From Kineosporia babensis (GTDB lineage: Bacteria; Actinomycetota; Actinomycetes; Actinomycetales; Kineosporiaceae), in the NCBI RefSeq assembly GCF_021129305.1, contig NZ_JAJOMB010000002.1, forward strand, positions 186,001 through 250,000: a DNA stretch of 64,000 nucleotides, in the 5' to 3' direction. A program made the position numbers and the translations under genes. The notes under the pieces are model-generated. The model was not told the origin of the DNA, searched no databases, and saw only the letters and a list, made by a program, of their open reading frames with translations. Of the stretch, positions 24,170-36,613 are shown piece by piece; the stretch's first letter is position 1; each line of letters opens with the position of its first letter.

Positions 24170-26515
24170 GTGGAGACGGGCCGCGAGGGCGGAGCCGACT
24201 TCGGGTCGGCGGCCCGGGGCGTGCTCGCCGACCTGCGTGCCTGGGTCGGCCTGGAGAGCTGGGCGATCCTGCGCCGCGACGACGAGGAGCTCGTCGTCAT
24301 GCTCACCATCGACGACACGTTCGGCCTGTTCGACGGCCAGACCCGGCCCTGGGCCGAGTCGTACTGCTGCCAGGTGGTGGAGTGGGGCCGGCCCGAGGCG
24401 GTGCCCGACGCCGCCGAGAACCACCTGCTGACTCAGGCCTTCAAGAACGACCGGGTGCTGGCCGGTGCCGCGCTGATGGTGCCGTTGCGATCCCCCGAGG
24501 GCAAGGTGCTCGGCGCTCTGAGCGGGCTCTCGGCCCGGCCGGTGCCCGATCTGGAACGCCACCTGCCGGCCGTGCGCCGTCAGGCCGCCCTGCTCGGGGC
24601 CCTGCTGGGCTACGAGCTCTCCGTACAGCGCGAGGACCGCCGCGACCAGAGCCCTCCGGTGGAGTTCACCGACCTGCTCACCGGCCTGGCCAACCGCCGG
24701 GCCTGGGACGACGCGCTTCGGGCAGAGGACGCCCGGGCCACCCGTTACGCCGGCTCGGCCGCGGTGCTGGTGCTCGACATCGACGGCCTGCGCCGGGTCA
24801 ACTCCGGCACCGGGCACGCCAGCGGCGACGACGTACTGATCACCACCGCCACGGTACTGGCCGGCCGGATGCGCTCGGTCGACTTCGTGGCCCGGATCGG
24901 CGGCGACGAGTTCGGCGTGCTGATGCCCGAGACCACCGCCGAACAGGCCAATATCGTGCTCAGCGACCTGCGCAAGGCCCTGGCGGCGGCCGGGGTGACG
25001 GCCTCGTTCGGGGTGGGCCAGCGGCGCAGCAACACCGGCCTGCAGGCCGCCTGGCGAGCCGCCGACGTCGAGATGTACGCCGACAAGATCCAGACGGCCG
25101 GCCGCCGGATCCCGCGCCAGCCGAGCGTCTCCTCCGAAGAGGACGGTCCGAAGGAGCCCTACGTCGGCCCGGAACGGCGCCGCAACGTGGGCCGTCGTGA
25201 CGAGGACGAGGCCGTCCGGCAGATCCCCGAACAGCCCAAAAAATCTGCTGAAGAACAGATCCCGGGGCAGGCCGAGGCCGAGGCCGTGCAGGCGCTCGCG
25301 GTGGAGACCGTAGGGCGCCGGCTGACCAGCGTGGACGCCCTGCTCCAGCTGGCCAAGGACCAGCTCGGGATGGACGTGGCCTTCCTGGGCACGTTCGAGG
25401 GCAGGACCGGGCAGCAGCGGGTGCGCAACCTGGTGGCCTCGATCGACGTGCCGGTCAGCGTCGGCCAGCTGCAGCCGATCGACGACACGTACTGCAAGGC
25501 GCTCACCGACGGCCGGCTCGCCTCGGTCATCCCGGACACCGCAAAAGATCCGGTCACCCGGGCCCTTTCGCTGACCCGCGAACTGTCGATCGGCTCGCAC
25601 GTGGGGATACCGCTGCACCGGCGCGACGGGCGGCTCTACGGCACCCTGTGCACCTGGTCCACCGCCCCCGACGAAGCCCTGCGCGAACGCGACGCCGAGG
25701 TGCTGCGGGCGATCGGCACGGTGGTGATGGACCTGGTCGACATCGAGGACCGGACCGAGCGCGACCGGCACCAGATGCTCGACCGGATGGACCGGCTGAT
25801 GGCCAACGGCGGGCCCGGCGTGGTGTTCCAGGCGGTGCACGCCCTGGAGGGCCTGAGTACCGTGGGCGTGGAGGCGCTGAGCCGGTTCCCGGCCGGCAGC
25901 GGCCGCCCGGACGAGTGGTTCACCTCGGCCAGCCGGGCCGGGGTGGGCCTGGAGCTGGAACTGGCCGCGGTCCGCAACGCCCTGACGATTCTGCCTGCGC
26001 TGCGCGGGTTCCTGGGGATCAACGTCTCCCCGCGTACCCTGGTCTCGCCCGCCTTCGGCCGGCTGGTCACCTCGCTGCCGCTGAGGAGCATCGTCATCGA
26101 GATCACCGAGCACGAGGCGGTCGACGACTACGACGCGCTGAACGAGGTGCTGCGGCCCTGGCGGGAGCGCGGGATGCGGGTGGCGGTGGACGACGCCGGG
26201 GCCGGCTTCGCCAGCATGCGGCACGTGCTGACCCTGGTCCCGGACTTCATCAAGCTGGACATCTCGCTGGTGCGCGGCATCGACGAGGACCCGGCCAAGC
26301 GCGCCCTGGCCGGGGCGCTGGCGGCCTTCGCCCAGAAGATCGGCAGCAGCGTGATCGCCGAGGGGATCGAGACCGCGGCCGAACTGTCCTGCCTGCGCAG
26401 CCTGAAGGTGGAGTTCGGCCAGGGTTACCACCTGAGCATGCCGGGCCCGCTGGCCGACGAGATGCGCAAGGACGGCGAGAGCCTGCCCGAGCCGGCGACC
26501 CATCACCAGACGTGA
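24170..26515 (+). CDS. Soluble GAF-GGDEF-GAF-EAL cyclic-di-GMP protein
   Basis: 781 residues from GTG 24170, 8 nt after the exporter stop; there is no strong SD, so the start is tentative. Order: GAF-like domain (~10-150), GGDEF domain (FTDLLTGLANRRAW; intact GGDEF near residue 243), a charged linker, a second GAF domain (~360-500) and an EAL domain. The EAL part has VEALSRF (~567), NVSPRTL, EITEHEAVDD, DDAGAGFASM in place of the usual DDFGTGYSS, KLDISLV and AEGIET, so catalytic acids are kept although the loop 6 motif is altered. No membrane helix is seen; it is likely a cytosolic c-di-GMP enzyme sensing two ligands. Confidence 0.88.
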   Translation: METGREGGADFGSAARGVLADLRAWVGLESWAILRRDDEELVVMLTIDDTFGLFDGQTRPWAESYCCQVVEWGRPEAVPDAAENHLLTQAFKNDRVLAGAALMVPLRSPEGKVLGALSGLSARPVPDLERHLPAVRRQAALLGALLGYELSVQREDRRDQSPPVEFTDLLTGLANRRAWDDALRAEDARATRYAGSAAVLVLDIDGLRRVNSGTGHASGDDVLITTATVLAGRMRSVDFVARIGGDEFGVLMPETTAEQANIVLSDLRKALAAAGVTASFGVGQRRSNTGLQAAWRAADVEMYADKIQTAGRRIPRQPSVSSEEDGPKEPYVGPERRRNVGRRDEDEAVRQIPEQPKKSAEEQIPGQAEAEAVQALAVETVGRRLTSVDALLQLAKDQLGMDVAFLGTFEGRTGQQRVRNLVASIDVPVSVGQLQPIDDTYCKALTDGRLASVIPDTAKDPVTRALSLTRELSIGSHVGIPLHRRDGRLYGTLCTWSTAPDEALRERDAEVLRAIGTVVMDLVDIEDRTERDRHQMLDRMDRLMANGGPGVVFQAVHALEGLSTVGVEALSRFPAGSGRPDEWFTSASRAGVGLELELAAVRNALTILPALRGFLGINVSPRTLVSPAFGRLVTSLPLRSIVIEITEHEAVDDYDALNEVLRPWRERGMRVAVDDAGAGFASMRHVLTLVPDFIKLDISLVRGIDEDPAKRALAGALAAFAQKIGSSVIAEGIETAAELSCLRSLKVEFGQGYHLSMPGPLADEMRKDGESLPEPATHHQT

Positions 26516-26549
26516 TGGCTGACCCTCGTCGCTGTGATGCGTCGGGGTC

Positions 26550-26577
26550 TGGACAATCTCTACTGTCTAGGTAGAGT
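26550..26577 (+). promoter_or_regulatory. Promoter of the sulfur operon, with internal inverted repeat
   Basis: A -35-like TGGACA (26550-26555) and -10 TAGAGT (26572-26577) are separated by 16 bp. The -10 lies 7 nt before the ATG of the poly-cysteine uORF, so transcription should start at or next to that ATG. CTCTAC (26558-26563) and GTAGAG (26571-26576) form an inverted repeat with a 7-bp spacer over the -10 region, a possible operator. Confidence 0.65.
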
Positions 26578-26584
26578 AATCGAC

Positions 26585-26656
26585 ATGGAACAGGTGAGCA
26601 CGTCGACGGCGGGGCCGTGTCCCGCCGCTGCGGCCGGTTGTTGTTGTCGCTGCTGA
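26585..26656 (+). CDS. Leaderless poly-cysteine upstream ORF (leader peptide)
   Basis: A 23-codon frame ATG...TGA that ends Gly-Cys-Cys-Cys-Arg-Cys, plus one more Cys at residue 12. Five cysteines in 23 residues is exceptional. It has no SD but sits 7 nt after TAGAGT, so it is probably translated from a leaderless mRNA. It precedes an operon of sulfur-scavenging genes. Leaderless poly-cysteine uORFs that attenuate sulfur genes in response to cysteine are known in mycobacteria; by analogy ribosomes stalling on the TGT-TGT-TGT-CGC-TGC run under cysteine shortage would turn the operon on. Confidence 0.7.
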   Translation: MEQVSTSTAGPCPAAAAGCCCRC

Positions 26657-26850
26657 CTCTTCGAGAGATCACTGCCTGAGGACGCCGGTGGGCGCCCGTC
26701 CTTCGTATCGTCCGGTTCCGTCCGGCCCGGGTTCCGGGTGACCGGCGGACCGTCCTGAAAAAGCACTGAAAAACGCACGCCACCCGACTTTTGCCGGTCG
26801 GTGGTGCGCTGCCGCACGGCCACATCCATGATCCGGGGAGACGGTGCACC
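26657..26850 (+). promoter_or_regulatory. Structured leader between the Cys uORF and the monooxygenase gene
   Basis: 194 nt with several possible hairpins: CTCT/AGAG directly after the uORF stop (26657-26667), CCCGG-GTT-CCGGG (26726-26738) and a bulged stem CCACCCGAC (26780-26788) with GTCGGTGG (26797-26804) ahead of the GGGGAG ribosome site (26835-26840). It is a candidate attenuator switched by ribosome stalling in the uORF. Base-pairing was judged by eye only. Confidence 0.45.
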
Positions 26851-28011
26851 ATGTCTGTCGAGTTCATCAGCGCGATCAACGTCAATCCGGCCAACGAGAT
26901 CAACCGGCTCGGCCGGTTCGACATCGACGTGCCCTACCTGAAGCGCTACTCCCGCCTGCTGGAGGACGGCGGCTTCGACTACACCCTGGTGCCCTACGGG
27001 TCTCCCGGGCACGACCCGTTCACCATCGCCTCCGCGGTGACCCAGTACACCGAGCGGATCAAGCCGATCGTGGCGCTGCGCCCGAACACGCTGTACCCCA
27101 CGGTGGCGGCCAAGGCTCTGGCCACGCTCGACCAGCTCTCCGGTGGTCGCGCAGTGGTCCACTTCATCGCCGGCGGCAGCGACCATGAGCAGCTGCGCGA
27201 GGGCGACACCCTGGACAAGGTGAGCCGTTACGAGCGGCAGGAGGAGTACATCCGCATCCTGCGCCGGGTCTGGAGTGAGACCGAACCCTTCGACCACGAG
27301 GGAAAGTACTACCGGTTCAAGGATTTCGTCTCGCGGGTACGGCCGGTCAACGGCACCGTCCCGGTCAGCGTCGGCGGTTCGTCGGACGAGGCCTACCGGG
27401 TGGGCGGTGCGCTCGGCGACATCTTCGGCCTCTGGGGCGAGCCGCTGGCCGAGACCGCGCAGCAGATCAGCCGGTTCAGCGAAGAGGCACGTAAGGCCGG
27501 GCGTAGTGACGTGCCGCGTACCTGGGTCACCTTCCGCCCGATCATCGCCCCCACTGAGGAGCTGGCCTGGGAGAAGGCGCACCGCACGCTGGAGGTGCTG
27601 AAAGGTACCACCCAGGGCGCGAAGTCGTTGTGGTCGCAGGCCAAGAACTGGAACGGCCCGGAGGGGCCGGCCAACGTCGGCTCGCAGCGCCTGCTCGAGA
27701 TCGCCTCGAAGAAGGATCTGCACGACCGCGCGTTGTGGACCCCCACGGCCACCGCGACCGGCGCGGCCGGGGCGTCCACTGCTCTGGTGGGCAGTTACGA
27801 GACGGTGGCCGCGGCCATCCTCGACTACATCGACCTCGGCGCCGATCTGATCTCGATCCGCGGCTACGACAACCTGAACGACGCGGTGGACTACGGTCGC
27901 TACCTGATTCCGCTTGTGCGGCAGGAGCTTGCGCACCGTGAGGCCACTGGTGAGCGCGGTACCGTGGTCCGGCAGGATCCGCTGGAGAACAGTGGCCTGG
28001 TGACGTCGTGA
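26851..28011 (+). CDS. SsuD-like LLM-class flavin-dependent monooxygenase
   Basis: 386 residues, a bacterial luciferase-like TIM barrel. Blocks shared with alkanesulfonate monooxygenase SsuD include LRPNTLYPTVAAKALATLDQLSGGR, GGSDHEQLREGDTLDKVSRYER, and VGGSSDEAYRVG...LWGEP. These enzymes use FMNH2 and O2 to cleave C-S bonds of sulfonates, or to oxidise related thio compounds. The substrate here need not be an alkanesulfonate, because the operon transporter is of the Dpp type. It is the first structural gene after the poly-Cys leader. Confidence 0.88.
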   Translation: MSVEFISAINVNPANEINRLGRFDIDVPYLKRYSRLLEDGGFDYTLVPYGSPGHDPFTIASAVTQYTERIKPIVALRPNTLYPTVAAKALATLDQLSGGRAVVHFIAGGSDHEQLREGDTLDKVSRYERQEEYIRILRRVWSETEPFDHEGKYYRFKDFVSRVRPVNGTVPVSVGGSSDEAYRVGGALGDIFGLWGEPLAETAQQISRFSEEARKAGRSDVPRTWVTFRPIIAPTEELAWEKAHRTLEVLKGTTQGAKSLWSQAKNWNGPEGPANVGSQRLLEIASKKDLHDRALWTPTATATGAAGASTALVGSYETVAAAILDYIDLGADLISIRGYDNLNDAVDYGRYLIPLVRQELAHREATGERGTVVRQDPLENSGLVTS

Positions 28012-29159
28012 CGCTGCAGATCGCTGATGTCGAACTGGGGGACGACCTGCTCCAGGACGTCAAGGAGCGGCTGGCTGAGGGGGCGGCCGAGAACGATCGC
28101 ACGGGCGAGTTTCCGTGGGTCGGCATTCAGATCGTGCACGATGCCGGGCTGCTGCGGGCGGGGATCGGAAAGGAATACCAGGGAGCGGGTCTCAGCGCGG
28201 TCGACAGCGTTCGCCTGTTCCAGGCACTGGGGGCCGGCGATCCGTCGGTGGCGCTGCTCACCGCTATGACGGTGTTCCAGCACCAGGCACAGGCCAAGGC
28301 GCCGTGGTGGCCGGAGGAGTTGTACCGCCAGGTGGTGGCCGACTCGTACGACCGGCCGGTACTGCTGAATGCGGTGCGGGCCGAACCCGAGTGGGGTGCC
28401 CCGGCCCGGGGTGGCCTGCCGGCGACCACGGTGCGCAAGGTCGAAGGCGGCTGGATCCTGAACGGCCGCAAAGGTTTCGCGACCGGTTCGGAAGGGTTGG
28501 CCTATCACCTGGTGTGGGCCACCACCTCCACCGATCCGGACGACAACCCGCTGCTCGCCCACGCCGTGGTTCCGGGTGACGCCCCGGGCATCGAGATCAT
28601 CCGTACCTGGGACCATCTCGGCCTGCGGGCCAGCAGCACCCACGACGTGATCTACACCGACGTCTTCATCCCCGAGGACAACTTCCGCGGGGTTCCGCTC
28701 TCCGAGCAGGGCCGCGACCTGCCCGGCGCGCTGGGCCTGGGCCTGTCCGCGCTGTACGTCGGCGTCGCCCGCGCCGCCCAGGCCTGGTTCGTCAAGTTCG
28801 CCAACGAGCGAATCCCCACCTCACTCGGCCGCCCGATCGCCAGCACCGAGCGCATCCAGTCGGTGGCCGGTGAGATCGAGGTCCAGCTCATCCAGGCCGA
28901 AGAGGTGCTGCTCGGCCTGGCCGCCGGCCTCGATGCGAACGACCCCAGAGCCGGCCGCCGGGTGCTCAGCGCCAAGATCATCGCCACCCGTAGCGCGGTC
29001 ATGGCCGTGCAGACCGCCGTGGCGGCCCTCGGCAACCCGGCGCTGACCCGGCACAACCCTCTGCAACGCCACCTGCGCGACGTGCTCTGTTCGAGGGTGC
29101 ACCCGCCCCAGGACGACGCGGCCCTGCTGATCGCCGGCCGCACCTCCCTCAAACGCTGA
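28008..29159 (+). CDS. Acyl-CoA-dehydrogenase-fold flavoprotein (SfnB/DszC-like)
   Basis: 383 residues from GTG, overlapping the upstream stop by 4 bp (GTGA). It has the ACAD fold: an N-terminal helical domain (GIGKEYQGAGLSAVDSVRLFQALG), a beta domain (GWILNGRKGFATGSEGLAYHLVWA, TWDHLGLRASSTHDVIYTDVFIP) and a C-terminal four-helix bundle. Its context beside an LLM monooxygenase fits SfnB/DszC-type flavoproteins, which oxygenate sulfur compounds rather than dehydrogenate acyl-CoA. It probably needs a flavin reductase encoded elsewhere, as none is seen in the operon. Confidence 0.83.
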   Translation: MTLQIADVELGDDLLQDVKERLAEGAAENDRTGEFPWVGIQIVHDAGLLRAGIGKEYQGAGLSAVDSVRLFQALGAGDPSVALLTAMTVFQHQAQAKAPWWPEELYRQVVADSYDRPVLLNAVRAEPEWGAPARGGLPATTVRKVEGGWILNGRKGFATGSEGLAYHLVWATTSTDPDDNPLLAHAVVPGDAPGIEIIRTWDHLGLRASSTHDVIYTDVFIPEDNFRGVPLSEQGRDLPGALGLGLSALYVGVARAAQAWFVKFANERIPTSLGRPIASTERIQSVAGEIEVQLIQAEEVLLGLAAGLDANDPRAGRRVLSAKIIATRSAVMAVQTAVAALGNPALTRHNPLQRHLRDVLCSRVHPPQDDAALLIAGRTSLKR

Positions 29160-29184
29160 GCCCGCACAGGAAGTGACCCCAAAG

Positions 29185-30810
29185 ATGAGATACAGACGTC
29201 CTCTGCTTGCCCTGACCGCCCTTGCCACCCTGGCCGCCTGCGGCGGGGGAGCGGACGCCGCGAACGACGGCGACGGTGGCAACCCGGTCAAGGGCGGCAC
29301 GCTGCGCATCGCCTTCTGGGACGACGCCCAGGGCTGCATCGATCCCAACCAGGTGTACTGGATCGAGAGTCGTTCGCTGAACCGGCAGTTCGCCGACTCG
29401 CTCACCGACCAGGATCCGGAGACCGGCAAGATCGTGCCCTGGCTGGCCGAGAGCTGGGAGGTGAACGACGACGCCACCAGCTACACCTTCAAGCTCCGTG
29501 ACGACGTCACCTTCTCCGACGGCACCAAGTTCGACGCCGCGGCGGTCAAGACCGCCTACGACGCGACCCACGCCCTGGGCGCCAAGTCGCTGCTCGGCCT
29601 GACCTACACGGCCGGTTACAAGTCCACCGAGGTGGTCGACGACTACACCGTCAAGGTCGACTTCGACCAGCCGAACAGCGCCTTTCTGCAGGCCAGTTCG
29701 ACCACCACGCTGGCGATCCTGAGCCCGGAGACGTACCGGCAGACCCCGGAAGAACGCTGCACCGGCGACAACCTGGTCGGTACCGGCGCCTTCACCCTGG
29801 ACAGTTACACCGCCGCCACCGAGGCCAAGCTCAGCCGCCGCGACGGCTACGCCTGGCCCTCGGAGCTGATCGAGAACCAGGGCGACGCCTACCTGGACGC
29901 GATCGAGGTCAGCTACATCAAGGAGGACAGCGTCCGGGTCGGCAGCCTGACCAGCGGTGCGATCGACATCGCCTGGCCTCGCCTGCCGATCTCCGAGGCC
30001 GACCAGAAGGTGATCGAGGCCACCGGCGCCGGCATCGAGTCGCGTTCGCTGCCCGGCATCAGCAGCAGCTACTTTCCCAACGTCGGCGCGGGCAAGCCGC
30101 TGGCCGACGTGAAGGTACGTCAGGCGCTGCAGAAGTCGATCGACCGTAAGAGCTACGCCAGCACCGTGTTCTGGGACGGCTACCCGGTGGTGAGCGGGCC
30201 GTTCGACAACACCACGCCGTACGCCACCGACTCCTCCGGCGTGCTGGCCTACGACCCGGAAGGTGCCAAGGCCCTGCTCGACGAAGCCGGCTGGACAGCT
30301 GGGGCGGACGGCTACCGGGCCAAGGACGGTGAGCCGCTCACCCTGACCATCCCGGCGCAGAACACCACCCCGGGCGACCAGCTCGTGCAGGACCAGCTCA
30401 AGCAGGTCGGGATCAAGGTCGAGCTGAACGTGCTCACCCTGGCCCAGTACCAGGCCGCGGCCGCCGACGGCGACTACGACCTGCTGGCCACCTACTACAC
30501 CCGGGCCGACCCCAGCGTGCTCGGCTCGGTGCTGGACTCCGGCGTGAGCCAGGCCGGCACCGCCCAGCTCTCCCAGGACCCGGCCACGAAGAAGGAGATC
30601 AGCGGGCTGTTCGCCGAGGGCCTGCAGGACGTGGCCGAGGACAAGCGGGCCGGTACCTACGCCGATCTGCAGAAGCTGATCCTCGAGCAGGGCGTGATGT
30701 TCCCGCTGTACGAGCGGGTGCAGACGGCCGGGGTGGCCTCGAAGGTGCACGGGTTCGCCTGGACCAGTGAGGCTTTCCTGCGCGCCAACGACATCTGGAT
30801 CAGTCAGTGA
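29185..30810 (+). CDS. Dpp/Opp-type ABC transporter substrate-binding lipoprotein
   Basis: 541 residues. ATG 29185 is chosen over GTG 29173 because AGGAAGTGA (29168-29176), one base off the ideal SD, lies 8 nt upstream. The N-terminus MRYRRPLLALTALATLAAC is a lipoprotein signal with Cys after LAA. The body is SBP family 5 (FADSLTDQDPETGKIVPWLAESWEVNDDATSYTFKLRDDVTFSDG). The family binds peptides, nickel complexes or other small molecules; in this operon the ligand is presumably an organosulfur compound. Confidence 0.9.
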   Translation: MRYRRPLLALTALATLAACGGGADAANDGDGGNPVKGGTLRIAFWDDAQGCIDPNQVYWIESRSLNRQFADSLTDQDPETGKIVPWLAESWEVNDDATSYTFKLRDDVTFSDGTKFDAAAVKTAYDATHALGAKSLLGLTYTAGYKSTEVVDDYTVKVDFDQPNSAFLQASSTTTLAILSPETYRQTPEERCTGDNLVGTGAFTLDSYTAATEAKLSRRDGYAWPSELIENQGDAYLDAIEVSYIKEDSVRVGSLTSGAIDIAWPRLPISEADQKVIEATGAGIESRSLPGISSSYFPNVGAGKPLADVKVRQALQKSIDRKSYASTVFWDGYPVVSGPFDNTTPYATDSSGVLAYDPEGAKALLDEAGWTAGADGYRAKDGEPLTLTIPAQNTTPGDQLVQDQLKQVGIKVELNVLTLAQYQAAAADGDYDLLATYYTRADPSVLGSVLDSGVSQAGTAQLSQDPATKKEISGLFAEGLQDVAEDKRAGTYADLQKLILEQGVMFPLYERVQTAGVASKVHGFAWTSEAFLRANDIWISQ

Positions 30811-31787
30811 CGTCGGTGAAGTGGCTGACCAGCTCGACGGCCAGGTACCTGGCCGGGCGGGTGCTGCAGGCGGTGATCGTGCTGTGGGCGGTGTACACCG
30901 TCACCTTCGGCATCCTCTACCTCCTGCCCAGCGATCCGGTGGAGCTGCAGCTGGCCGCGGCCAACGTGCAGGTCGACGAGCTCAGCCCGGCCGAGCTGGC
31001 CGCGGCCAAGCAGCAGTACGGCCTGGACCAGCCACTGGCCACGCAGTACTTCGACCAGCTGGGCGGGTTGCTGCGCGGTGACTTCGGGCAGTCCATCTCG
31101 CTGCACCGCCCGGTCGGTGAGCTGCTGGCCGAAAGGCTGCCCTCCACCCTGGCTCTCGGCGCGACCGCGATCGGCCTGGCCCTGGTGCTCGGGGGCACCC
31201 TGGCCTACCTGGCCGCCTACGTTCGCGTGGCCTGGTTGAAGACGGTGCTGAACCGGCTTCCGGCCGTGGGGGTCTCGCTGCCGCCGTTCTTCGTCGGGCT
31301 GCTGCTGATCCAGGTGTTCGCGTTCGAGCTGGGCTGGTTCCCGGCCACCGGTACCCAGGGCGCGTCCAGTCTGGTCCTGCCCGCGATCACCATGGCCGTG
31401 CCCACCGCGGCGATGCTGGCCCAGGTGCTCACCCGCAGCCTGGACGACCAGCTCGCCGAGCCCTACGTGGCCACCGCCGCCGCCCGCGGTCTGAGCCGTC
31501 AGTATGTGCAGGCCCGGCATGCGCTGCGAAATGCTCTGCTGCCCACGCTGACTCTGCTCGGGTTGCTGCTCGGCGCCACGGTCACCGAGGCCGTGGTGGC
31601 CGAGACAGTGTTCTCCCGGCCCGGGGTGGGGCAGATGGCCCAGCAGGCGGTGCTGGCCCAGGACGTGCCCCTGGTCCAGGCGATCGTGGTGCTCGCGGCC
31701 GCCGTGTTCGTGGTGATCAACCTGCTCATCGATCTCGTGTACCCGCTGTTCGACCCGCGGATCACGCACACCCCACGGGTCTCTTAG
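30807..31787 (+). CDS. DppB-like ABC transporter permease
   Basis: 326 residues from GTG 30807 (GTGA overlap with the binding-protein stop). It has six membrane helices, an N-terminal LAGRVLQAVIVLWAVYTVTFGILYLLPSDPV signature, and the EAA-loop-like YVATAAARGLSRQYVQARHALRNALLPTL that contacts the ATPase. It forms the importer channel with the next permease. Confidence 0.9.
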   Translation: MTSVKWLTSSTARYLAGRVLQAVIVLWAVYTVTFGILYLLPSDPVELQLAAANVQVDELSPAELAAAKQQYGLDQPLATQYFDQLGGLLRGDFGQSISLHRPVGELLAERLPSTLALGATAIGLALVLGGTLAYLAAYVRVAWLKTVLNRLPAVGVSLPPFFVGLLLIQVFAFELGWFPATGTQGASSLVLPAITMAVPTAAMLAQVLTRSLDDQLAEPYVATAAARGLSRQYVQARHALRNALLPTLTLLGLLLGATVTEAVVAETVFSRPGVGQMAQQAVLAQDVPLVQAIVVLAAAVFVVINLLIDLVYPLFDPRITHTPRVS

Positions 31788-31798
31788 GAGAGTTGGTC

Positions 31799-32680
31799 AT
31801 GTCGGTCGATCTCGCACCAGAACTGGGGACGCGGGTGGTCCCCGAAGTCGCTGCCGGGCAGCGGAGTCCGCGGAGACTGGGACTGCTCACCGCCCGTCCC
31901 GGGCTGATCCTGGCCCTGCTCTTCGTGGGTTTCGTACTGGTCTCGGCGGTGGTGCCGGGCTGGTTCACCCGCTACGACCCGAACGCCACGGCCGGGCCGG
32001 ACAAGCTGCTCGCCCCTTCGGCCGAGCACTGGTTCGGCACCGACGAGCTGGGCCGCGACCTGTTCAGCCGGGTGCTGCACGGTTCCACCCTGACCATCCA
32101 GGCCACCCTCGGCGCGATCGTGATCGCCGTGGTGGTGGGCCTGACCCTGGGCGTGGTCTCCGGCTTCTTCGGCGGCTGGCCGGACTCGGTGCTGATGCGG
32201 GTGGTCGACGTGCTGCTGGCGATCCCGCGCCTGCTGCTGGCCCTGACCATCGTCACCGCCCTGGGTTTCGGCACGCTACCGATCGCGGTGGCGGTGGGGG
32301 TGGGCATCGTGCCCGGCTTCGCCCGGATCACCCGCGCCCGGGTGCTGAGCATCAAGGCCCTGCCCTACATCGAGGCGGCCCGCACCGGCGGCGCCTCGTG
32401 GACCCGGGTGCTGGTGCGGCACATCCTGCCCAACAGCTGGGGGCCGGTGCTGGTGCTGGCGGTGCTGGACTTCGGCGTGGCCATCCTGGCGATCTCGGCG
32501 CTCAGCTTCCTCGGCTTCGGGGCGGCCCCGCCCGCCGCCGAGTGGGGCACGCTGATCTCGCAGGGCCGTAGCTACCTGATCACCTCACCGTGGCTCACCC
32601 TGCTGCCCGGGCTCTTCGTCGGGCTGACGGTGTTCAGCCTGAACCACATTTCCCGCAGCCTTGAGGAGCTTCAGCGATGA
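31799..32680 (+). CDS. DppC-like ABC transporter permease
   Basis: 293 residues. AGGAGAG (31786-31792) precedes ATG 31799 and overlaps the TAG of the upstream permease; the in-frame TTG 31793 is too close to it. The family signature is clear: HWFGTDELGRDLFSRVLHGSTLTIQ near residue 80, and the coupling loop YIEAARTGGASWTRVLVRHILPNSW. Partner of the DppB-like permease. Confidence 0.9.
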   Translation: MSVDLAPELGTRVVPEVAAGQRSPRRLGLLTARPGLILALLFVGFVLVSAVVPGWFTRYDPNATAGPDKLLAPSAEHWFGTDELGRDLFSRVLHGSTLTIQATLGAIVIAVVVGLTLGVVSGFFGGWPDSVLMRVVDVLLAIPRLLLALTIVTALGFGTLPIAVAVGVGIVPGFARITRARVLSIKALPYIEAARTGGASWTRVLVRHILPNSWGPVLVLAVLDFGVAILAISALSFLGFGAAPPAAEWGTLISQGRSYLITSPWLTLLPGLFVGLTVFSLNHISRSLEELQR

Positions 32681-34299
32681 GCGCGATTCTGGAGATCCAG
32701 GGACTGTCGGTGGCCTATCGTCCGCATCGTCACCGCCCGCCGGTACCCGCCGTCCGGGACATCTCGCTCAGCATCGGCCGGGGCGAAACCGTTGCCGTGG
32801 TGGGTGAATCCGGATCGGGCAAGAGCACTCTGGCCGCAGCGGTACTCGGCCTGCTGCCCGGAACCGGAGCGGTGACAGGCGGTTCCATCACCGTTGCCGG
32901 CAAACCGGTCACCGGCGCGAGCGAGCGCGCTTTACGTGATCTGCGCGGCCGCGTGGTAGCGCTGATCCCGCAGGACCCGACGGTCACGCTCAACCCCACT
33001 CGGCGGATCGGCCCGCAGGTGGCCGAATCCGTACGCCGCAGACAACCGGAAGTACCAAAAAGAAGTGTGGACGCGGAGGTCTTGGCTGCGCTGTCGGCTG
33101 CCGGTCTGGAGAACCCGGAATTGCGGGCCCGGCAGTATCCGCACGAACTCTCCGGCGGCTTGCGGCAGCGGGTGCTGATCGCGGCCGGCCTGGCCGGGGA
33201 ACCGGAGCTGCTGATCGCCGACGAGCCCACCAGCGCTCTGGACGTGACCGTGCAGAAGCGGATCCTCGACCACCTGGACCGCCTGGTGGCCGGGCGCGGC
33301 ATCGCTCTGCTGCTGATCACCCACGACCTGGGTGTGGCCGCCGACCGGGCCGACCGGGTGGTGGTGATGCGCTCCGGCGAGGTGGTCGAGAGCGGTCCGG
33401 CGGCAACGGTTCTGGGTTCACCGCAGCACGAGTACACCAAGGAACTGCTCCGCGCCGCGCCGGGCTTCTCGGTGACTGTGCGCGAGGCCGGAGAACGCAC
33501 CCCCGAGCCGATCCTGCAGCTGGAAAGGCTGACCAAAGACTATGCGCTGCCCGGCGGCGGTAACTTCCGCGCGCTCGACGAAGTCACGCTCCAGGTCCCC
33601 AAGGGCCAGACCCTGGGCCTGGTGGGGGAGTCGGGCTCGGGCAAGACCACGGCCCTGCGCTCGGCGCTCGGCCTGATCACCCCCACCGCGGGGCGGATCC
33701 GGTTCGACGGCCAGGACATCACCGATCTGGGCTGGCGGCAGCTGCGCCCCCTGCGCAGGCGCTTCCAGCTGGTGCACCAGAACCCGTTCGCCGCCCTCGA
33801 CCCGCGCTTCAGCGTGGAGCAGACGATCGGCGAACCGCTGGTCTCGTTCCGGGTGGGAGATCGCACCACGCGCCGCCGGCGGGTGCACGAGCTGCTCGAC
33901 GCGGTCGGCCTGCCGCGTGACTTCGCCGGCCGCCGGCCCGCCGAGCTCTCGGGTGGGCAGCGGCAGCGGGTGGCCATCGCCCGGGCGCTGTCGCTGGAGC
34001 CCGACCTGCTGTTGCTCGACGAGCCGGTGTCGGCGCTGGACGTGCGGGTGCAGGAGCAGATCCTGAACCTGCTCACCACGCTGCAGAACGACCTCGGCCT
34101 GAGCTACCTGTTCGTCTCGCACGACCTGGCCGTGGTGGCGGGCCTGGCGCACCGGGTGGCCGTGCTGCGGGGCGGGCGCCTGGTCGAGGAGGGCCCCACC
34201 GCCGAGGTGTTCAGCAACCCGCAGTCCGAGTACACCCAGGAGCTGCTGAGCGCGATCGCCGGCCGGAGCCCCCGGGAGCATGCCGGGACCACATCATGA
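32677..34299 (+). CDS. Fused DppD-DppF-type double ABC ATPase
   Basis: 540 residues; both nucleotide-binding domains on one chain. Domain 1: Walker A GESGSGKST, signature LSGGLRQR, Walker B LLIADEPTSALD. Domain 2 (from about residue 275): GESGSGKTT, LSGGQRQR, LLLDEPVSALD. It energises the two permeases. ATGA overlap with the upstream gene indicates coupled translation. Such fusions are common in actinobacterial and glutathione/peptide importers. Confidence 0.92.
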   Translation: MSAILEIQGLSVAYRPHRHRPPVPAVRDISLSIGRGETVAVVGESGSGKSTLAAAVLGLLPGTGAVTGGSITVAGKPVTGASERALRDLRGRVVALIPQDPTVTLNPTRRIGPQVAESVRRRQPEVPKRSVDAEVLAALSAAGLENPELRARQYPHELSGGLRQRVLIAAGLAGEPELLIADEPTSALDVTVQKRILDHLDRLVAGRGIALLLITHDLGVAADRADRVVVMRSGEVVESGPAATVLGSPQHEYTKELLRAAPGFSVTVREAGERTPEPILQLERLTKDYALPGGGNFRALDEVTLQVPKGQTLGLVGESGSGKTTALRSALGLITPTAGRIRFDGQDITDLGWRQLRPLRRRFQLVHQNPFAALDPRFSVEQTIGEPLVSFRVGDRTTRRRRVHELLDAVGLPRDFAGRRPAELSGGQRQRVAIARALSLEPDLLLLDEPVSALDVRVQEQILNLLTTLQNDLGLSYLFVSHDLAVVAGLAHRVAVLRGGRLVEEGPTAEVFSNPQSEYTQELLSAIAGRSPREHAGTTS

Positions 34300-35345
34300 G
34301 CAGCCGCTACGTGATCATCGGGGCCGGGGCGATCGGTGCCCTGCTGGCCGCGCAGCTGCACCTGGCCGGCAAGCCGGTGGTGCTGGTGGCCCGGGGCCGC
34401 AACCTCGAGGCGATCCGGGCCCACGGGGTGCGGGTGCGCAGGCCAAGCAACACCGAGCAGGTACGGGTGCCGGTGGTCGCCGGCCCGCACGAACTTCAGC
34501 TCACCTCGGACGACGTTCTCGTGCTGACCACCAAGACCCAGGATGCCGAGCAGGTGCTGGCCGAGTGGGCCTGGCAGCCGGTGGCGCCGGACCGGGTGGC
34601 CGCCGACCTGCCCTTGCTCACCTTCCAGAACGGCCTGGCCACCGAGGACCTCGCCCTGCGCCGGTTCGCCCAGGTGTACGGCGTCTCGATCGGGGTGGCG
34701 GCCAGCTATCTCACCCCCGGCGAGGTGGTCTCCCCGTCGTACCCGATCATCGGTGTGGTCTGGCTGGGGCGTTACCCACGGCCCGCCGCTCATGAGCCGC
34801 ACGCCGAGCAGTACCTGCGTGACCTGCGCGAAGCCGGCTACGACGGGAGCCTGGTCGAGGACATCCGCGCCTACAAGGCCCGCAAGCTCCTGCTCAACCT
34901 GGCCAACGGCCTGGGCGTGCTGCAGGGCAGCGACAGCGAGCGCGACCAGGCCCGCGAGAAGCTGGTGCAGGAGGCCCGCGCGGTGTTCCGGGCCGCCGGC
35001 ATCGAGGTCACCCAGGCTGCGCCGGGCCATCTCAGCGTGGAACCGGTACCCGGTCACGAGCCCGGCCACCTGTCCACCTGGCAGAGCTTCGCCCGTGGGG
35101 CCTCCAGCGAGGTGGACTACCTGAACGGCGAGATCGTGCTGCTCGGCCGTCGGCACCGGGTGCCCACCCCGGTCAACGAGCGGCTGCAGCGACTGCTCGG
35201 CGCTCAGGCCGCGGCCGGTCTACCGCCCGGCACCCACCACGTCGCCGACGTCCTCACCAACGACCGCTCACCGAACTACGTTGGCCCTCGCAACCGCGTC
35301 GGCCGATCCGAAGGAAGAACGCATGAGCCCGCTCATCACCGTTGA
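34296..35345 (+). CDS. Ketopantoate-reductase-like NAD(P) oxidoreductase
   Basis: 349 residues, ATGA overlap with the ATPase. N-terminal Rossmann motif YVIIGAGAIGALLAAQL, then DDVLVLTTKTQDA, and the ApbA/PanE C-terminal helical domain with KARKLLLNLANGL and GASSEVDYLNGEIVLLG. Canonical PanE makes pantoate, but homologues in catabolic operons reduce or oxidise other 2-keto/2-hydroxy acids; here it probably processes the carbon skeleton of the imported sulfur compound. Its last residues overlap the sulfurtransferase start by 23 bp. Confidence 0.82.
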   Translation: MSSRYVIIGAGAIGALLAAQLHLAGKPVVLVARGRNLEAIRAHGVRVRRPSNTEQVRVPVVAGPHELQLTSDDVLVLTTKTQDAEQVLAEWAWQPVAPDRVAADLPLLTFQNGLATEDLALRRFAQVYGVSIGVAASYLTPGEVVSPSYPIIGVVWLGRYPRPAAHEPHAEQYLRDLREAGYDGSLVEDIRAYKARKLLLNLANGLGVLQGSDSERDQAREKLVQEARAVFRAAGIEVTQAAPGHLSVEPVPGHEPGHLSTWQSFARGASSEVDYLNGEIVLLGRRHRVPTPVNERLQRLLGAQAAAGLPPGTHHVADVLTNDRSPNYVGPRNRVGRSEGRTHEPAHHR

Positions 35346-36177
35346 CGAACTTCTCACGCTCCAGCAGAACGGATCGCCGCGACTGCTCGACGTGCGCTGG
35401 AAGCTCGGCGGCCCGCCCGGACCGGACGAGTTCCGGGCCGGGCACATCCCGGGGGCGGTGTACGTCGACCTCGACGAGCAGTTGGCCGCGCACGGTGGCC
35501 CCGGCACCGGCCGGCACCCGCTGCCCAGCGCCGAGGCCTTCCAGCGGTCGGCCCGCTCGTGGGGCCTGAACAACACCGACACGGTGGTGGCCTACGACGA
35601 CGCCGGCCTGCTGTCCGCGGCCCGGCTGTGGTGGCTGCTGCGCTGGGCCGGGTTCGACGGCGAGGTGCGTCTGCTCGACGGTGGGCTGCGGGCCTGGAAG
35701 GAGGCCGGGCAGGCGCTGGCCACCGGCGACGCCCCCGAGCCGGCCGCCGGCAATGTCACGCTCGGTGAGGGAAAGCTGCCCACCATCCCGGTCGAGGGTG
35801 TGCTGCCCTTCGTCGCCGACGGTGGGCTGCTGCTCGATGCCCGCCCGGCCGAGCGCTACACCGGCGAAGCCGCCTCGATCGACCCGCGCCCGGGCCACAT
35901 TCCTGGCGCAGTGAGCGCTCCCGCGGTAGGAAACATCGGTGACGACGGACGATTCGCCGCCCCCGACGTCCTCAAGCAGAAGTTCGAGGCTCTTGGCGTG
36001 AGCGACGAGCGCCCGGTGGGCGTGTACTGCGGATCCGGCGTGACCGCCACGCACGATCTGCTGGCCCTGGCGGTGGCCGGATTCGACCCCGACCGGGTGC
36101 CGTTGTACCCGGGGTCCTACTCGCAGTGGGCCGCACTGCCCGACACCCCGGTGGTCACCGGCCGCGAACCTTTCTGA
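35323..36177 (+). CDS. Two-domain sulfurtransferase (thiosulfate/3-mercaptopyruvate type)
   Basis: 284 residues from ATG 35323 with GGAAGAA upstream. Two rhodanese domains: the N-terminal one is inactive (VVAYDDAGLLSAARLWWLLRWAGFDGEVRLLDGG) and the C-terminal one carries the catalytic loop VYCGSGVTA, of the CGSGVT form typical of 3-mercaptopyruvate sulfurtransferases. It moves sulfane sulfur from 3-mercaptopyruvate or thiosulfate to a thiophilic acceptor. A role in the last step of sulfur release is likely. Confidence 0.9.
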   Translation: MSPLITVDELLTLQQNGSPRLLDVRWKLGGPPGPDEFRAGHIPGAVYVDLDEQLAAHGGPGTGRHPLPSAEAFQRSARSWGLNNTDTVVAYDDAGLLSAARLWWLLRWAGFDGEVRLLDGGLRAWKEAGQALATGDAPEPAAGNVTLGEGKLPTIPVEGVLPFVADGGLLLDARPAERYTGEAASIDPRPGHIPGAVSAPAVGNIGDDGRFAAPDVLKQKFEALGVSDERPVGVYCGSGVTATHDLLALAVAGFDPDRVPLYPGSYSQWAALPDTPVVTGREPF

Positions 36178-36247: not shown

Positions 36248-36613
36248 ATGAGCGACAACCTCGAGACCCGGCCCGAGACGCTACCCGAGGCGCCGTTGGT
36301 CGGCGCCGCCGAAGCGCGGGAGCGGGTGGCCGCCGGCGCGGTGCTGCTGGACACCCGCAGCCCGGGTGGGCGGGAGAGGACCGGCCCGATCGAGGGTGCG
36401 GTCATCGTCGACCGTGACAACCTCGACGCCGAGTTCGATTTCGGCTCACCGGTTCGGCATGCCGAGGTGAAGGCGCTGGACACTCCGATCGTGGTGATCT
36501 GCGGTTCGGTGAACGGGTCCGGGCCGGTCGCGCAGGACCTGATCGCCCGCGGCTTCGTGAACGTGGTGCACGTCGAGGGCGGGGCGCCGGCCTGGCACGA
36601 ACTCGACCGCTAG
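36248..36613 (+). CDS. Single-domain rhodanese-like sulfurtransferase
   Basis: 121 residues from ATG 36248 with AGGAGAG just upstream; 70 bp after the two-domain enzyme. One rhodanese domain (LVGAAEARERVAAGAVLLDTRS...GPIEGAVIVDRDNL) with a catalytic-type Cys in VICGSVNGSGPVA and the C-terminal GGAPAWHELDR. It probably accepts or relays persulfide sulfur from the preceding enzyme. Confidence 0.85.
   Translation: MSDNLETRPETLPEAPLVGAAEARERVAAGAVLLDTRSPGGRERTGPIEGAVIVDRDNLDAEFDFGSPVRHAEVKALDTPIVVICGSVNGSGPVAQDLIARGFVNVVHVEGGAPAWHELDR

Follow-up and report, generated by a model that had tools for sequence, protein, structure and literature searches.

The nine genes that begin at position 26851 of the window (the whole 64-kb stretch of Kineosporia babensis DNA that was analysed) stand behind a short upstream ORF (uORF) with a run of cysteine codons before its stop. 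The question raised by this locus is whether cysteine supply could be sensed on these codons and control the genes that follow.

The uORF, its promoter and the operon

The features of the locus are collected in Table 1. The uORF opens with an ATG at 26585 and closes with a TGA at 26654-26656, its peptide ending in GCCCRC and consecutive Cys codons standing near its end (TGT TGT TGT CGC TGC stop). The hexamers TGGACA and TAGAGT, with a spacer of 16 nt, formed the single promoter match of a consensus scan over 26400-26900 on both strands (shuffle mean 0.0). Since TAGAGT occupies 26572-26577 and the ATG follows at 26585, the gap between them is 7 nt, and the corresponding distance is 6-7 nt in 14 relatives. 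These positions bear out the initial annotation, which had described a 23-codon ORF ending Cys-Cys-Cys-Arg-Cys-stop at 7 nt after TAGAGT. From the placement of the promoter, the transcript is expected to start at or beside the uORF ATG, and a transcript beginning at this ATG would be without a Shine-Dalgarno sequence. The annotated lack of such a sequence thus holds if transcription starts at the ATG and is doubtful if it starts further upstream, where the purines GGTAGAG (26570-26576) would offer a possible weak one.

Table 1 Features of the uORF region and of the downstream operon (positions in the window)
Feature	Position	Strand	Basis or remark
-35 hexamer TGGACA	26550..26555	+	Consensus scan; TGGACA or TAGACA at the equivalent place in the genus
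Dyad CTCTAC-N7-GTAGAG	26558..26576	+	Overlaps the -10; candidate operator of a putative regulator
-10 hexamer TAGAGT	26572..26577	+	7 nt 5' of the uORF ATG; sequence and consensus scan
Leaderless-type uORF, 23 codons, MEQVSTSTAGPCPAAAAGCCCRC*	26585..26656	+	Layout repeated in relatives
uORF tail TGT TGT TGT CGC TGC (proposed sensor)	26639..26653	+	TGT TGT TGT also in G003
Untranslated leader, 194 nt, uORF stop to monooxygenase start	26657..26850	+	C/G 1.13
GGGGAG, presumed Shine-Dalgarno of the monooxygenase gene	26835..26840	+	Sequence
LLM flavin monooxygenase, SsuD/SfnG-like	26851..28011	+	Below curated cut-offs of SsuD and SfnG
Acyl-CoA-dehydrogenase-family flavoprotein, SfnB/DszC-like	28008..29159	+	Pfam/NCBIfam, below cut-offs
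ABC importer substrate-binding protein, family 5 (peptide/nickel type)	29173..30810	+	Pfam/NCBIfam
ABC permease	30807..31787	+	Pfam/NCBIfam
ABC permease	31793..32680	+	Pfam/NCBIfam
Fused double ABC ATPase	32677..34299	+	Pfam/NCBIfam
ApbA/PanE-like reductase	34296..35345	+	Pfam/NCBIfam
Two-domain rhodanese (SseA-like sulfurtransferase)	35326..36177	+	Pfam/NCBIfam
Single-domain rhodanese	36251..36613	+	Pfam/NCBIfam

The region between the uORF and the first gene had been annotated as a structured leader, in which a stalled ribosome might prevent termination. Neither part was supported: the fold of the uORF plus leader was not unusual (z = -1.26, with 25 of 200 shuffles folding at least as well), and the consensus scan found no intrinsic terminator-like site in 26400-26900 on either strand. 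Rfam gave no gathering-score match in the window. Long minus-strand ORFs across the leader were set aside as GC-rich artefacts on judgement alone. A perfect dyad, CCATCAC-N5-GTGATGG, at 26500-26518 spans the stop codon of the upstream neighbour, a GGDEF/EAL gene; it is kept in Kineosporia rhizophila and missing from the genus genome G003.

The nine downstream genes, which had been called rich in sulfur enzymes, were confirmed by Pfam and NCBIfam. Alkanesulfonate monooxygenases were the nearest solved relatives of the monooxygenase (best E 2.1e-45), and the downstream genes were placed in sulfur metabolism by family alone. Judged from these gene families, the operon looks like one for organosulfur scavenging. 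The order LLM-ACAD-SBP-PermB-PermC-ATPase was kept in 30 of 47 orthologous loci, several of the rest being truncated.

Recurrence of the Cys-tail uORF

For the chance control, a combination was counted wherever an ORF of 8-60 codons started 5-8 nt after a TANNNT box, and a Cys tail was defined as Cys-x0-1-Cys within the last nine residues. Both strands of the 64-kb window held four such combinations, and the only one with a Cys tail was this uORF. The 47 orthologous loci (751 kb, both strands), which were picked by protein and not by leader and are mutually non-independent (several are from Rathayibacter, for example), held 34 combinations. Of these, 14 have a Cys tail, in 14 different loci, and every one of them is placed 128-350 nt 5' of the orthologous monooxygenase gene and behind TTGGAC. 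The Cys-tail uORF in the window is not due to chance.

When looser promoter criteria were used, a Cys-tail uORF was found upstream of the monooxygenase in 27 of the 47 loci, also where another gene comes first; 25 of these stand behind a TANNNT or TTGGAC-like promoter and two have a start that looks Shine-Dalgarno-led (Table 2). The strict 14 and the three loci with the uORF before SseA come from Rathayibacter, Microbacteriaceae, Subtercola, Cellulomonas, Aeromicrobium and Nocardioidaceae, the uORF being directly 5' of SseA in three Aeromicrobium/Nocardioidaceae loci. In eight Frankia/Parafrankia loci the uORF lies 0.6-1.7 kb 5' of the monooxygenase, with a hydrolase-like gene between the two in at least one locus (L035); we infer that both share one transcription unit there. 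The Frankia uORFs share a TRRRxVDFG segment, as judged by eye. Tails differ by lineage (CCCRC, CCCCS, CCCR, CCCPNC, CSCP, CPCP, CRCSC, CRCRP and CCRCR), and a further uORF ending in ...RLCCCR was found in G219. By eye, G107 (L103) looks like the same species as L056.

Table 2 Classes of the 47 orthologous loci by their front (apart from the strict 14, the assignment relied partly on inspection by eye)
Class	Number	Loci
Strict	14	L015, L016, L017, L018, L019, L020, L022, L023, L027, L028, L043, L049, L058, L060
TTGGAC with other -10, before SseA	3	L021, L024, L025
Frankia type	8	L032, L033, L035, L036, L038, L041, L046, L048
Cys tail, Shine-Dalgarno-led-looking start	2	L030, L051
At most one Cys	4	L047, L050, L054, L056
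Readable front without Cys-tail uORF	9	L026, L042, L044, L045, L052, L053, L055, L059, L061
Truncated or front not readable	7	L029, L031, L034, L037, L039, L040, L057

The Cys codons of the tails are mostly TGT: in the last 14 positions of 28 uORFs, which are related so that the counts are not independent, there were 62 TGT and 16 TGC, compared with 2 TGT and 17 TGC in 11 genes of the window and with 2 TGT and 4 TGC in the first 370 codons of 14 orthologous monooxygenase genes.

The promoter was also surveyed by itself, as TTGGAC-N18-20-TAGCGT-N6-7-ATG, in 297 genomes of the order. There were 28 sites in 26 of the genomes (reversed control 0), and the only one that opens a short ORF is that of a CCCR uORF before this monooxygenase. 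This promoter was rejected as a marker of Cys uORFs because the other 27 sites open ORFs of at least 96 codons. It marks mostly leaderless long genes (L074-L101), of oxidoreductase, LysE-like and thiolase-like types as judged by eye. In L042 and L045 (and L044 by eye), the monooxygenase itself begins at leaderless distance from the -10, with no uORF, and the attenuator is absent. Another dyad, CGATCGG-N5-CCGATCG, lies upstream of five Rathayibacter-type promoters and of L044; a putative LysR-type activator at this site is our guess.

Within the genus, the promoter box with the dyad CTCTAC-N7-GTAGAG was found in five of six genomes (reversed control 0; one extra match with three mismatches elsewhere in G005) and not in G004. 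In G003 a uORF reading MERWITSSAGRARSGCCCCS-stop follows the box; it has TGT TGT TGT in common with the window uORF, while one is 9 nt longer than the other and many of their remaining codons differ. K. rhizophila (G001; L004/L026) keeps the promoter, the uORF start (GTG) and all nine genes in order, with a monooxygenase 94% identical, and its uORF is 14 codons long with no Cys codon. It has lost the Cys codons and would offer a natural loss-of-sensor control. By protein search at E 1e-60, no such monooxygenase was found in G002 and G005, where the box precedes ApbA and SseA and no Cys uORF accompanies it. Of the three genus genomes that have the monooxygenase, two retain the Cys run, so the run is less widely conserved than the promoter. 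In the 4-kb loci of the paralogue in the genome itself (L008) and of the distant homologues L006 and L007, no uORF had a Cys tail, and no convincing Cys uORF was found in the 1.5-kb flanks of cysD/cysH-type genes in the genus genomes.

Conservation of the Cys run amid variable codons, which the initial annotation had named as a test, was found: a Cys tail is present in 27 of the 47 loci, while it was lost in K. rhizophila and is missing from eight further readable fronts. The wide presence of the dyad in the genus, also where the Cys uORF is absent, and a K. rhizophila uORF devoid of Cys codons would fit a fortuitous ORF behind a promoter that is under a DNA-binding regulator alone. However, the Cys tails are recurrent and specific in distant genera, and we regard a fortuitous ORF as very unlikely.

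The layout announced by the initial annotation, a leaderless-type poly-Cys uORF before a sulfur-related operon, recurs at orthologous loci: a promoter near the uORF ATG, a mostly UGU Cys run and an untranslated leader are found at this operon in several actinobacterial families. The presence of similar leaders at this operon in distant relatives suggests that these bacteria raise the operon when cysteine is short. From such sequence comparison we consider it probable that the uORF is a cysteine-responsive leaderless attenuator, acting by cysteine-dependent ribosome stalling, of an organosulfur-scavenging-like operon. Several findings count against the attenuator: nine of the 47 loci have no Cys-tail uORF and another four carry a single Cys or none, the promoter of G002 and G005 is not followed by a Cys uORF, no such uORF is present at L006, L007 and L008, most Frankia uORFs scanned match no NCBIfam model, and the window leader has no terminator, an ordinary fold and none of the C excess of other leaders, nor does modelling give a consistent Shine-Dalgarno change. 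As a whole, the earlier interpretation is partly supported.

Possible read-outs of a stalled ribosome

In the proposed attenuator, a ribosome supplied with enough charged tRNA-Cys would read the Cys run, stop and leave, which would keep expression low. Under cysteine shortage, the ribosome would stall on the UGU codons and the repression would be relieved, and the products of the relieved operon would free sulfur from organic compounds. As to how the stall is read out, we lean slightly towards Rho being kept off the leader, with translational control of the first gene nearly as likely.

In the first case, Rho would load on the untranslated leader after the ribosome has left the uORF and would end transcription, unless the loading site is covered by a ribosome that has stalled on the Cys codons beside the stop. 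A stalled ribosome that covers a Rho loading site near a stop codon is a geometry like that of tnaC. We put this possibility slightly short of an even chance. It fits a window leader without an intrinsic terminator, and C/G is at least 1.5 in 19 of the 20 leaders whose first-gene start is defined, compared with 3.9% of 29762 background windows of 150 nt, although this background is largely coding sequence cut to one fixed length and a C excess is no test of Rho. The window leader is the exception, with its C/G of 1.13, and only one of eight Frankia leaders (taken as the next 200 nt) reaches 1.5. Most non-Frankia leaders are thus C-rich, as would suit Rho, but that of the window is not. Rho has previously been suggested for mycobacterial cys leaders, but the same paper calls the candidate Rho sites not conserved and the prediction weak (PMC1262725).

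Alternatively, the leader might keep the first gene's ribosome-binding site hidden until a stalled ribosome frees it, which we hold possible, though somewhat short of even. In the model, the site of the window leader is mostly paired (P unpaired 0.12-0.21), and two papers describe the mycobacterial precedent as translation control. The initial annotation had likewise proposed that the stall exposes the monooxygenase start. Against this, moving the ribosome from the first Cys codon to the stop changed the modelled accessibility in no consistent manner over 20 leaders, and the first gene begins as far as 87-350 nt after the uORF stop (the length of the untranslated leader in the 20 measured).

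It was also considered that an RNA element is conserved, perhaps a pause or protein-binding hairpin, and not the Cys codons as such. In Microbacteriaceae loci (L015, L016, L028 and others), the uORF contains a hairpin whose 3' arm consists of the Cys-Ser-Cys-Pro codons. Over 10 sequences, 97.0% of 133 cells pair, compared with 33-66% when the alignment is slid, and the Cys-Ser-Cys codons are identical in 10 of 10, synonymous sites included. However, covariation was rejected here: the pairs hold and none changes on both sides. Since shuffles also score as high, sequence invariance explains the hairpin equally well. Furthermore, the predicted folds of Kineosporia and Cellulomonas lack the hairpin, yet their Cys codons are kept. 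Conservation of the RNA in place of the codons is therefore improbable in our judgement, and stalling at the Cys codons is retained as the preferred reading.

Relation to known leader peptides and wider meaning

The window uORF peptide matched no NCBIfam family up to E 10, and none in Pfam; it is therefore below the curated cut-offs of NF042933, NF042934 and NF042936, including the mycobacterial families Ms5788A and Ms4527A, with no match at all. The NCBIfam names Ms5788A (NF042933) and Ms4527A (NF042936) are presumably derived from the work of Canestrari et al. 2020. Among the natural Frankia uORFs, one of the five scanned matched an NCBIfam family, below the cut-off (14.4 of 45 bits, E 0.023). 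A different leader is present in all six genus genomes (14-kb stretches), where an ORF ending in VDLLRTASA(A/T)CR precedes a nitrite/sulfite-reductase (NIR_SIR) gene. In the genome of the window it lies at 5.4-5.9 kb of L104 (contig C15), with NIR_SIR domains confirmed, and the others are in L106-L110. For NCBIfam NF042934, cis_reg_atten (putative leader peptide), this own copy scored 30.8 bits against a cut-off of 27, and the copy of G004 scored 26.7. We count the presence of such a leader in the genome of the window in favour of the attenuator. The genus leader ends in VDLLRTASAACR with a single Cys, whereas the window uORF is without such a motif. The window uORF may work like the nitrite/sulfite-reductase and Frankia-type leaders without belonging to them by sequence.

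Leaderless polycysteine short ORFs have been reported in mycobacteria (Canestrari et al. 2020), with terminal Cys codons and a place before sulfur genes as in the window; the leaderless start would be shared too if transcription of the window uORF begins at its ATG. The window uORF differs from them in the genes downstream, an SsuD/SfnG-like monooxygenase, an ABC importer and rhodaneses. Similarly, leader peptides with Cys runs have been described for cys/cbs operons of Mycobacterium, Propionibacterium acnes and Bifidobacterium longum (Seliverstov et al. 2005, PMC1262725). As in the window, these ORFs are short, carry Cys codons close to the stop and have no obvious terminator, and a role of Rho was suggested for them, but they precede cys/cbs genes and not an operon with an SsuD/SfnG-like monooxygenase. 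Further leader literature was consulted (PMC9094748, PMC13236596, PMC9031893, PMC4633059, PMC8079986, PMC4833913). For Streptomyces lividans, a list of eight leader peptides assigns none of these to cysteine (PMC8079986). One of them, metL before metNIQ, ends in RCMCRRMCAF there, and with three Cys codons in this end cysteine is as plausible a signal as methionine.

Attenuation by poly-Cys leaders is thus already known, and the window uORF would be a further case on a different operon. No description of such control on such an operon was found among the matches listed in the open-licence literature, in agreement with the initial annotation, which knew of none. Going further, the leaders may form a widespread and hitherto undescribed class, in which a leaderless uORF that ends in UGU-biased Cys codons travels together with its promoter as one module upstream of the organosulfur-scavenging operon, whichever gene comes first, and in which charged tRNA-Cys is sensed directly in conjunction with a DNA-binding regulator; we hold this to be hardly less probable than its opposite.

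If true, cysteine attenuation, which is known for cysteine and sulfate-assimilation genes, would also take in organic-sulfur scavenging by soil and plant-associated actinobacteria. Some two dozen leaders from nature, together with natural losses such as that of K. rhizophila, would then be at hand for settling how a stall is read out in high-GC bacteria without an intrinsic terminator.
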